Source: Thermomicrobiales bacterium (lineage in GTDB: Bacteria; Chloroflexota; Chloroflexia; Thermomicrobiales; UBA6265). Taken from it: a DNA stretch of 64,000 bases. This document shows, in pieces, positions 17,755 through 59,603 of the stretch; positions within the stretch are counted from its first letter, which is position 1, and the number at the start of each line of letters is the position of its first letter. The DNA lies in NCBI GenBank assembly GCA_019637585.1, contig JAHBVL010000002.1, positions 630,023 through 694,022 on the forward strand, written 5' to 3'. Below the pieces are notes generated by a model, which saw only the letters and a list, made by a program, of their open reading frames with translations, was not told the DNA's origin and ran no database searches. Position numbers and translations under genes: made by a program.

Positions 17755-17830
17755 GCGCCCGTAGCTCAGCGGATAGAGCGTCTGCCTCCGGAGCAGAAGG
17801 TCCCGTGTTCGAGTCACGGCGGGCGTACCA
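17755..17830 (+). tRNA. tRNA-Arg (anticodon CCG)
   Basis: A full 76-base cloverleaf including an encoded CCA end. The acceptor stem GCGCCCG pairs with CGGGCGT (one G-T pair). The D stem is GCTC/GAGC, the anticodon stem TCTGC/GCAGA encloses loop CTCCGGA with anticodon CCG, and the T stem CCGTG/CACGG encloses TTCGAGT. It decodes CGG. Its 3' half is repeated at 18264-18308, marking it as an integration target. Confidence 0.96.
17786..17830 (+). repeat. Left copy of a 45-bp direct repeat (att-like, tRNA-Arg 3' half)
   Basis: The segment from the anticodon loop to the CCA end of tRNA-Arg is repeated at 18264-18308 with 43 of 45 identical bases. In this copy it is part of the functional tRNA. The two copies enclose 433 bp carrying an AbrB-PIN toxin-antitoxin remnant. 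The pattern is that of attachment sites left by a tyrosine-recombinase element that restores the tRNA 3' end. Confidence 0.8.
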
Positions 17831-35043: not shown

Positions 35044-35165
35044 GTAGCGGCGACGGCTTGTCCTCGCCGGTGGCGGAACGGAGCGAAGCGGAGTGGAGCC
35101 ACAAGTGCCGTCAATCGCCAACGACATTGCATATGGCGGCGGTTTACGGCCCTTCGGGCCGTGAG
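35044..35165. repeat. GTAGCG-ended intergenic repeat, copy 1
   Basis: This begins GTAGCGGCGACGGCTTGTCC and continues with CCGGTGGCGGAACGGAGCG, a segment shared with the element at 56.5 kb and, in variant inverted form, with the one at 59.5 kb. Internal palindromes include ACGGCCC-TTC-GGGCCGT (35145-35161). It fills most of the 181-base gap between a hydrolase gene and a convergent methyltransferase gene. No open frame is convincing. Confidence 0.65.
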
Positions 35166-49924: not shown

Positions 49925-50389
49925 ATGGCCAATGACGCCGAGAACACCCCAGTCGCCTGTATCCGGGCGTGGCATGCGCTCCGGGAGATGCACGATCGCG
50001 TTTCCCGGCAGATCGAAGCAGCACTTGCCGCCTGCTGCACGCTGTCGTCGACCGAGCTCCGGGCGCTTGTTGTCATCCAGGAGCATGGCGCCGGCGGCAT
50101 TCGTCTGACGTCGCTCTGCCAGCACACTGATCTCAGCCAGCCGGCTGTGTCACGACTCGTCGAGCGGCTGGAAGAGCGGGGGCTGATCGAGCGGCACATC
50201 GATGACCTCGACCGGCGCAGTGTCCTCCTCCGTCTCACCGCCGAAGGCGAAACGCTCACCCAGCGGGCCTCAGAAGTCCACGCAGCAACAGTCAGCGACG
50301 CACTCGGCACGCTGCTGGCCAGCGAAGACCAGCAACGGTTGCTCGAAGCACTCCAGCCGCCAAGCAACAGTCAGAATCCCACCCTGTAG
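49925..50389 (+). CDS. MarR-family transcriptional regulator (hemerythrin operon)
   Basis: 154 aa winged-helix regulator. IRLTSLCQHTDLSQPAVSRL then VERLEERGLIERHIDDLDRR is the DNA-binding domain with the DDLDRRSVLLRLTAEG wing. It contains a few cysteines (CCTLSS, SLCQH), which could sense thiol stress, but this is conjecture. Its TAG stop lies inside the GTAGCG end of the first cloverleaf repeat unit, so the present C-terminus (QPPSNSQNPTL) may have been set by repeat insertion. Confidence 0.88.
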   Translation: MANDAENTPVACIRAWHALREMHDRVSRQIEAALAACCTLSSTELRALVVIQEHGAGGIRLTSLCQHTDLSQPAVSRLVERLEERGLIERHIDDLDRRSVLLRLTAEGETLTQRASEVHAATVSDALGTLLASEDQQRLLEALQPPSNSQNPTL

Positions 50390-50694
50390 CGGCGAGGCCT
50401 GCCTCGCTCGTCCACAACGACGCGCAACGCAGGCGTTGCCGCTACACGCCCGACCACACCGCCACCTGTAGCGGCGAGGCCCGCCTCGCTCGTCCATAAC
50501 GACGGGCAACGCAGGCGTTGCCGCTACACCCCGGACCGCACCGCCACCTGTACCGGCGGGGCCTGCCTCGCTCGTCCGCAACGACGCGCAACGCAGGCGT
50601 TGCCGCCACACCCCGGACCGCACCGCCGCCACCTGTAGCGGCGAGGCCCGCCTCGCTCGTCCACAACAACGGGCAACGCAGGCGTCGCCGCTAC
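50386..50694. repeat. Array of four 60-bp cloverleaf-forming repeats
   Basis: Units at 50386-50445, 50468-50527, 50550-50609 and 50635-50694 are separated by near-identical 22-25 base spacers. Each is built as GTAGCG / hairpin GCGAGGC-ct-GCCTCGC / hairpin TCGT-ccaca-ACGA / hairpin GCAACGC-ag-GCGTTGC / CGCTAC, where the first and last blocks pair to close a cloverleaf (not in unit 3). Differences between units mostly leave the hairpins paired. The array fills the gap between marR and the MFS gene and supplies the marR stop codon. It is not CRISPR. Confidence 0.9.
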
Positions 50695-50716: not shown

Positions 50717-52339
50717 TCAATGGCTTGCCGGCACGATCAGCGACGCGTCGACCTCGGAGTCCTGCTCCTCAGCCGTCTTCTGGCTCGTCGCCACGACGTG
50801 ACCGGTCCGCAGGGGAATCTCTTTCAGGAAGAGCACGACGATCAACGCCAGCACGATGATCGGTATAGCGAACAGAAAGATATCGGTGATCGCATCGGTG
50901 TAGGCCGTCAGGACGAGCGTGCGGGTCGGCTCTTCGAGCTGTTGAATCGCCTGGACATCGTTCGTGTTGATCTCTCCACCGGTCAGCGTCAGACCTGAAC
51001 CGGCGAATTCGTCAGCCAGATAGGCGGCCAAACGGGATGTCAGCACCGCACCAAAGAGGGCCGCGCCGATGGCGCCGCCCAGCGAGCGCCCGAAGGTCGT
51101 CGCACTGGTGGCCACACCCATATCCCGCATCTCGACCGCGTTCTGGATCGGCGTGACGATCGTCATCATGGCCAGACCGAGACCGGTGCCGAAGAGGAAG
51201 GCGTAGATCGCCACCTGCCAATAGGGCGTATCCATCGAAATCTGGCTGAGCAGGAAGAGGGCGATGAGCAGAGTGACCGACCCGATGATCGGAAAGATCT
51301 TGTACTTGCCGGTTCGGGTGATGAGCTGTCCGGAAACGATCGACATGGAAAACATGCCGACCACCATCGGCAACATCCCCATTCCCGATTGCGTCGGGGT
51401 GAACCCCTTGACCGCCTGCAGATAGAGCGGCAGATAGATGGCTCCGCCAAAGATTGCGAACCCGATCAGAAAGCCGAAGGCATTGCCGACGGAGAAGATC
51501 GGGTTGCGGAAGAGTCGCATCGGAATGATCGGTTCTTCGGCGCGCAGCTCGATGAAGACGAATAGCACCGCCAGCACAGCCGCCGCAATGACCAACGCCA
51601 GTGCCTGGGGTTCGGTCCAGCCGTAGTGCTCGCCCGCCCAGTTGAGATAGAGGAGCAACGACGTGACGGCAGCAACGATCGTGGCCGCGCCCAGATAGTC
51701 GATCTTCTGCTTGCGTTTGATCACCGGCATCTTCAGCACCATCGAGGTGATCACCAGCGCCGCGATACCCACCGGCAGATTGATATAGAAAATCCATCGC
51801 CAGCTGATGGCATCGGTGAGCCAGCCGCCCAGCAGCGGTCCGGCGATGCTCGAAACCCCGAACACCGCGCCGAAATACCCTTGATAGCGCCCTCGTTCGC
51901 GGGCCGGAATGACATCGCCGATGATGGCGAAGGCAATCGCCATCAGACCGCCGCCGCCGATGCCCTGAATCGCCCGAAACGCGATCAGCTGCGGCATGGT
52001 CTGGGCCAGACCGCAGAGCATCGATCCGATCAGGAAGATGATGATCGTCGCCTGAAAGATGATCCGGCGGCCATACAGGTCGGAAATCTTGCCCCAGAGT
52101 GGTGTCGAGGCCGTTGAGGTGAGCAGATAGGCCGTGACCACCCAGGCCAGATGGTTCAGCCCACCGAGATCACTGACGATGCGGGGCAGTGCCGTGCCGA
52201 CGATGCTCTGGTCGAGAGCGGCCAGCAGCATGCCCGACATCAGCCCTATCAGGATGATCTGAATCTCACGGTGAGAGAATGACGGCATCTGGATATCGGC
52301 TGGATCGGCCGTTCCGGCTGCCGCGGACTTCGATGACAT
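50717..52339 (-). CDS. MFS drug exporter, DHA2 (14-TM) family
   Basis: 540 aa membrane exporter. The N-terminal LIGLMSGMLLAALDQSIVGT, LAWVVTAYLLTSTASTPLWG then KISDLYGRR (motif A), and GAVFGVSSIAGPLLGGWLTD (motif C) followed by AISWRWIFYINLPVGIAAL are the DHA2 hallmarks, with about 14 hydrophobic segments. ATG 52339 follows AGGGGG. It is divergent from a TetR gene, with a perfect 20-bp palindrome between them, and so is almost certainly TetR-repressed. The substrate is unknown. Confidence 0.93.
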   Translation of the reverse strand: MSSKSAAAGTADPADIQMPSFSHREIQIILIGLMSGMLLAALDQSIVGTALPRIVSDLGGLNHLAWVVTAYLLTSTASTPLWGKISDLYGRRIIFQATIIIFLIGSMLCGLAQTMPQLIAFRAIQGIGGGGLMAIAFAIIGDVIPARERGRYQGYFGAVFGVSSIAGPLLGGWLTDAISWRWIFYINLPVGIAALVITSMVLKMPVIKRKQKIDYLGAATIVAAVTSLLLYLNWAGEHYGWTEPQALALVIAAAVLAVLFVFIELRAEEPIIPMRLFRNPIFSVGNAFGFLIGFAIFGGAIYLPLYLQAVKGFTPTQSGMGMLPMVVGMFSMSIVSGQLITRTGKYKIFPIIGSVTLLIALFLLSQISMDTPYWQVAIYAFLFGTGLGLAMMTIVTPIQNAVEMRDMGVATSATTFGRSLGGAIGAALFGAVLTSRLAAYLADEFAGSGLTLTGGEINTNDVQAIQQLEEPTRTLVLTAYTDAITDIFLFAIPIIVLALIVVLFLKEIPLRTGHVVATSQKTAEEQDSEVDASLIVPASH

Positions 52340-56498: not shown

Positions 56499-56654
56499 GT
56501 AGCGGCGGCACCTGTGGCCGCCGGTGGCGGAACGGAGCGCAACGAAGTGAAGCGGAGTGCAGCCACAACCGGCTCGCTGTGGCTGCGGGCAGGTATGGCC
56601 CTCCGGGCCATCCTTCGACTTCGCTCAGGACCGACCACAAGGGATCGCCGCTAC
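56499..56654. repeat. GTAGCG-ended intergenic repeat, copy 2
   Basis: The element starts GTAGCGGCGGCACCTGTGGC and ends GATCGCCGCTAC, so both ends carry GTAGCGGCG facing inward. Its right 61 bases (56594-56654) are, in reverse complement, identical but for one base to 59462-59522. Its left arm (CCGGTGGCGGAACGGAGCG) matches copy 1 at 35.0 kb. It lies between convergent M81 and GH4 genes. Confidence 0.8.
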
Positions 56655-59461: not shown

Positions 59462-59603
59462 GTAGCGGCGATCCCTTGTGGTCGGTCCTGAGCGAAGTCG
59501 AAGGATGGCCCGCAGGGCCATAACCACCTCGCCAGGCTTTGGCTCCGTTTCGCGCCTACGGCGCTTCACTCCACCACCGGTGGGGACAAGCCGCCACCGC
59601 TAC
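59462..59603. repeat. GTAGCG-ended intergenic repeat, copy 3
   Basis: The left 61 bases (59462-59522, GTAGCGGCGATCCCTTGTGG...) equal the reverse complement of 56594-56654 with one mismatch. The right end, read on the minus strand, is GTAGCGGTGGCGGCTTGTCC and resembles the left arm of copy 1. The TAG of this right end (59600-59602) is the stop codon of the histidine kinase gene. It lies between the convergent split-barrel and kinase genes. Confidence 0.8.

Follow-up and report, generated by a model that had tools for sequence, protein, structure and literature searches.

A tandem array of cloverleaf-like hairpins in a Thermomicrobiales genome reads as head-to-head GTAG REP dimers with a likely RAYT-type transposase of their own

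We read four tandem hairpin units between two convergent genes of a Thermomicrobiales bacterium as head-to-head dimers of a GTAG REP family, probably spread by a Y1-HUH transposase of the RAYT/TnpAREP type. We give this reading a probability of roughly 0.9. An intact RAYT-like gene lies between the same REPs elsewhere in the genome, and its homologues in relatives are flanked by GTAG hairpins of their own. The window analysed here is a stretch of 64,000 nucleotides of contig JAHBVL010000002.1 (assembly GCA_019637585.1), in which the array fills the gap between a MarR-type gene and a convergent DHA2-type MFS gene:

49925-50389, plus strand: MarR-family regulator gene, convergent neighbour, outside the element
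50387-50389, plus strand: TAG stop of the MarR-type gene upstream, from the GTAG foot of unit 1
50386-50445: unit 1
50386-50408, plus strand: unit 1 REP, type Z (GAG/CTC stem)
50423-50445, minus strand: unit 1 REP, type Y (AAC/GTT stem), opposite orientation
50468-50527: unit 2
50468-50490, plus strand: unit 2 REP, type Z
50505-50527, minus strand: unit 2 REP, type Y
50550-50609: unit 3
50550-50572, plus strand: unit 3 REP, type Z, GTAC foot, GGG/CTC stem with one G.T pair
50587-50609, minus strand: unit 3 REP, type Y, GTGG foot
50635-50694: unit 4
50635-50657, plus strand: unit 4 REP, type Z
50672-50694, minus strand: unit 4 REP, type Y, GAC/GTT stem, one G.T pair
50717-52339, minus strand: DHA2-type MFS efflux transporter gene, convergent neighbour, outside the element

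The initial annotation had described four tandem 60-bp repeats with periods of 82, 82 and 85 and near-identical spacers, and we found exactly this layout. TRF returned a period of 82, 3.8 copies and 88% matches, and scanning the window with the REP pattern gave 7 matches against 0.03 expected. Each 60-bp unit consists of two GTAG-footed palindromes (REPs) set face to face, one of type Z and one of type Y, and is a head-to-head REP dimer (BIME/REPIN). A transposable hairpin was among the options offered initially and proved the right one, with mobility inferred. The GTAGCG and CGCTAC ends were said to pair in each unit; in unit 3 this pairing is broken because the ends are degenerate (GTACCG / CGCCAC). 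The G-U pair noted in the same unit is real: its first stem is kept through one G.T pair, GCGGGGC/GCCTCGC. Recent duplication of unit plus spacer was also seen correctly. Since unit and spacer repeat together, the four-unit array probably grew later by tandem duplication of a dimer with its spacer.

The conserved object is the 23-nt REP instead of GTAGCG-N48-CGCTAC, the string singled out at first. This palindrome, GTAG-C-GGC[NNN]GC-CT-GC[NNN]GCC, has a GTAG foot at its 5′ end, followed by one spacer base and an 8-bp stem that closes on a 2-nt loop, often with CGTC 3′ of the stem. Pattern searches and fetched genome stretches, from which all REP counts are drawn, gave 96 exact matches in the organism's own 3.94-Mb genome compared with 4 for a reversed control pattern. 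A more permissive scan of these stretches found 162 REPs, spread over 42 loci, a few mid-gene matches among them being probably chance; foot and spacer read GTAGC in 144 of the 162. The assembly comprises 33 contigs, several of which begin or end in arrays of the window-type REP, and copy numbers and array sizes are therefore probably underestimated and represent lower bounds. Such arrays stand at the starts of contigs C10, C17, C18, C30 and C32 and at the end of C2.

Neighbouring REPs are arranged head to head (55), tail to tail (37) or head to tail (24). Type Y faces type Z in 40 of the 55 head-to-head dimers, and Y faces Y only across a centre of 52-54 nt. Among paired REPs a 23-nt centre is the most frequent, with CGTCGGTCGCTGGGGTTGCGGTG as its commonest sequence; the window array represents another subtype, whose centre is 14 nt long (CGTCCACAACGACG). 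REP number and order differ between loci, and REPs also occur singly. Terminal inverted GTAGCG/CGCTAC ends, along with three IS200-type TnpA genes in the genome, could point to the ends of a defective IS200/IS605 element or to a DDE-transposase MITE. Two facing REPs, each also found alone, explain the inverted ends, and no copy of these repeats lies within 1.5 kb of any of the three IS200-type genes. We rejected an IS200/IS605 origin on the latter ground and regard either kind of element as exceedingly improbable.

A cloverleaf, as initially proposed, can be drawn for each unit, but the window units fold best as a single long imperfect hairpin, which beats the cloverleaf by 10-18.5 kcal/mol under RNA parameters and by 1-12 kcal/mol under DNA parameters. 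As for the middle hairpin (CGTC..GACG), it is a trait of the subtype with the 14-nt centre and not of the family, because the commonest centre is 23 nt long and has another sequence. Covariation analysis, suggested at the outset as a check, revealed real covariation in the REP stems. Across 59 distinct REP sequences, 93.6% of cells were paired and both sides had changed in 55 cells, where cells count sequences and not independent events. The covariation score was 0.311, compared with 0.149 when shuffled (0/500 reached 0.311) and at most 0.144 with the partner slid. Whole sets of compensatory changes distinguish the stem types AAC/GTT, GAG/CTC, AAG/CTT, AAT/ATT and GAC/GTC. These patterns match selection on a single-strand hairpin, DNA or RNA alike: a hairpin-binding single-strand transposase would select such covariation, and covariation alone does not show RNA function. 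The GTAG strand carries G.T pairs at 24 loci and A.C at 6, an excess that comes largely from one basal pair (12 versus 5 without that pair, p=0.14); for telling selection on RNA from selection on DNA, this strand asymmetry is no more than suggestive.

Stem covariation and G.T pairs would also be expected of a transcribed structured RNA (tRNA-like, small RNA or riboregulator) under selection as RNA, and, as two convergent genes have their 3′ ends at the array, transcripts reading through from them would include it. However, searching Rfam over the array gave sub-threshold matches and nothing at gathering score, the sole match in the window being a tRNA at 17755. A tRNA search found none in the array, and no promoter-like site was found in it. 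The lower stability of the cloverleaf, the lack of conservation of the middle hairpin and the variation in REP number and order between loci likewise argue against a selected RNA. The tRNA-like or riboregulatory RNA first suggested thus strikes us as very unlikely.

REPs of the window family are placed between genes and towards their 3′ ends. When genes were called with a simple method based on codon usage, 155 of 162 REP midpoints fell outside them. Thirty-three clusters had both neighbours called, and these were convergent at 19, co-directional at 13 and divergent at 1; the convergent/divergent contrast departs from that of the window's own gene pairs, of which 12 are convergent and 13 divergent (Fisher p=0.0009). 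REPs sit at, or at most 30 nt from, stop codons, and a stop-codon overlap like that in the window, on one side, recurs at four other loci. On the stretches examined in relatives, homologues of the MarR gene retain an upstream hemerythrin-type gene and are not adjacent to the MFS gene, so that no empty site is readable there.

This placement, together with the strong hairpins, would fit co-option of the array as an mRNA 3′-end element that serves the MarR-type and MFS genes as a terminator, exonuclease barrier or ribosome-stalling REP, a role compatible with a mobile origin. At unit 4 the minus strand has two overlapping terminator-like matches (0.4 expected), which point the same way, and E. 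coli REPs at most 15 nt from a stop codon are reported to lower translation (PMC12306157). Yet such a role leaves copy number, heterodimers and transposase linkage unexplained, and we entertain it as a tentative possibility.

For REP dimers spread by a transposase, the candidate agent is an intact RAYT-like gene on contig C23 (C23:330755-331300, minus strand; L081 2300-1755), which encodes a Y1-HUH protein of 182 aa and has window-family REPs on both sides. A RAYT model detected it weakly and in two pieces (C23:330790-331239). Its protein scored 38.5 bits, split, with the RAYT equivalog NF047646 of NCBIfam, below the cut-off of 80, and its Pfam score of 22.2 was just under the cut-off of 23. 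The protein carries the motifs NHLH, WQ, E, H, R and YIAGNP. A weak PDB sequence match to TnpAREP 4er8 (E 0.59, query 140-170 on chain 92-122) provides an offset that places W142, Q143, E148, H149, R152 and Y163 at E. coli TnpAREP 94, 95, 100, 101, 104 and 115; the equivalents of the first five are GTAG-contacting or conserved residues in TnpAREP (PMC6006769). The AlphaFold model has a mean pLDDT of 85, and HUH and Y are separated by a segment that is variable and of low confidence.

By motif comparison alone, the protein fits best with TnpAREP subclass 2.4 (Bertels group 4) of Quentin et al. (2018), which is marked by NH[IFV]H, WQ and YIxNNP motifs and by an insertion between HUH and Y (PMC6006769). 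Like REPtrons of that subclass, the C23 gene has HUH (NHLH), WQ and YIxxNP-like motifs and a putative variable HUH-Y insertion, and lies between GTAG REPs whose stems start from G-C pairs. It differs in having YIAGNP, not YIxNNP, and in its ~160 genomic REP copies, mostly heterodimers. Homologues occur across the order, mostly at 35-46% identity and with NHLH, NHFH, NHIH or NHVH motifs. At 14 of 21 homologue loci in relatives, a GTAG-footed perfect hairpin lies at most 350 bp away, and six of these loci have one on both sides. GTAG had the top score among all 256 tetramers; unrelated tetramers scored at most 4, and the runners-up TAGG, CGTA, AGGG and TGTA overlap GTAG. These associations suggest that the C23 protein is likely the agent that spread the window REP family.

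A PF01797 search of the genome yielded six Y1 genes, namely the three IS200-type genes and three RAYTs (A, B and C) that meet the NF047646 cut-off and are only ~24-28% identical to the C23 protein. The RAYT genes map as follows:

C30 (L126 5040-6188): RAYT gene with tandem REPs, period ~60 bp, 77 genomic pattern matches
C1 (L124 4927-5848 and L125 4418-5752): two RAYT genes, each with its own GTAG REP type
C1:426916-427308: position of RAYT B, one of these three RAYTs

RAYTs A, B and C each sit amid GTAG REPs of their own, unlike the window REP in sequence, with 21, 48 and 77 pattern matches in the genome, respectively; we rejected all three as neighbours of the window REP on this basis. A fifth RAYT-like gene, at C1:547339-547767 or, more widely taken, ~C1:547279-547902 (L176 ~980-1603), is accompanied by its own GTAGGGGCGCAC REPs. 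The one downstream (GTAGGGGCGCACGGCGTGCGCC) provides the gene's TAG stop codon with its GTAG. The window also holds a second REP type, at 35044-35068 (+), 56630-56654 (-), 59462-59486 (+) and 59579-59603 (-), which reads GTAGCGGCGATC-CCTTGT-GGTCG..., as flanks RAYT B, and has 48 matches genome-wide.

We inferred the acting RAYT from adjacency because RAYT B's own REP, like the window REP, starts GTAGCGGCGA. This shared start is what would speak for mobilization of the window REPs in trans by RAYT B and not by the C23 gene. Against it, window-type REPs flank the C23 gene on both sides, whereas within ~5 kb of RAYT B there is none except one 3-mismatch match with a GGTG foot at ~4 kb, and B-type REPs have a CTTGT-type loop, not the 2-nt loop. 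Mobilization by RAYT B therefore seems quite improbable.

The window-type REP is essentially absent from relatives. Among 157 other genomes of the class it stayed at background level, except in a few where different palindromes also satisfy the loose pattern. A genome from another family of the class (G065) has a palindromic GTAGCGGCGTTGCATGCAACGCC repeat (for example C210:5607-5634; ~16 matches, both strands counted), which is possibly a 'double foot' REP family. A scan of GTDB contigs, from which the organism's own records were perhaps excluded, returned six single matches only, all in unrelated organisms, and we took these as chance or unrelated sequences and not as family members.

Together, these features place the window family within the range of known REP systems. 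The GTAG REP superfamily includes Chloroflexi and GTAG-23 of Thermomicrobium roseum, and its TAG stop codons from GTAG, convergent placement and G-T pairs have already been described (Di Nocera 2013, PMC3733652). Its defining traits are found here too: a stem of 6-13 bp with a short loop, complementary changes and many intergenic copies. The window family also shares the GTAG foot, an 8-bp stem, a 2-nt loop and a majority of head-to-head dimers, as well as tandemly reiterated clusters, an intergenic location between convergent or co-directional genes, TAG stops and G-T pairs in stems. It is set apart by many copies with CGTC 3′ of the stem and by its background level in the 157 class relatives, the comparison with GTAG-23 being one of description and not of consensus. 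E. coli BIMEs (REP Y/Z pairs) and Pseudomonas REPINs (Bertels and Rainey 2011, PMC3116915) likewise consist of inverted pairs that could form one long hairpin, and E. coli BIMEs are also heterodimers of different stem types; both differ from the window family in stem sequence, in that the latter has no bulge, and in the subclass of the transposase.

TnpAREP of E. coli and other species cuts single-stranded REP at CT or CA beside the hairpin, and in the E. coli and S. maltophilia systems the complementary strand is not acted on (PMC8266576). We surmise that the subclass 2.4-like transposase encoded on C23 would recognize the single-stranded GTAG hairpin and cut beside it, and that the strand would be transferred elsewhere. 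Insertions would be tolerated chiefly in gaps downstream of genes. Any effect on the mRNA 3′ ends of neighbouring genes would be secondary.

GTAG REPs, heterodimers, clusters, stop-codon overlap and REPtrons were already known, including T. roseum GTAG-23 (PMC3733652). What is new is the species-restricted REP sequence family and its assignment to a transposase, with GTAG-23 compared by description. It could be that a subclass 2.4-like RAYT, from a branch without reported biochemistry in the literature we found, maintains ~160 heterotypic REPs of which at least some arrays, the window array being one, are kept as mRNA 3′-end regulators of the flanking genes, but we consider this full picture unlikely. 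The C23 gene and its REPs offer a clean REP/transposase pair from a poorly studied subclass. Because the genome holds five or more RAYT-like genes, all accompanied by a REP type of their own, transposase-REP discrimination is directly testable. More generally, cloverleaf-looking tandem hairpins with GTAG ends should be read first as REP dimers.
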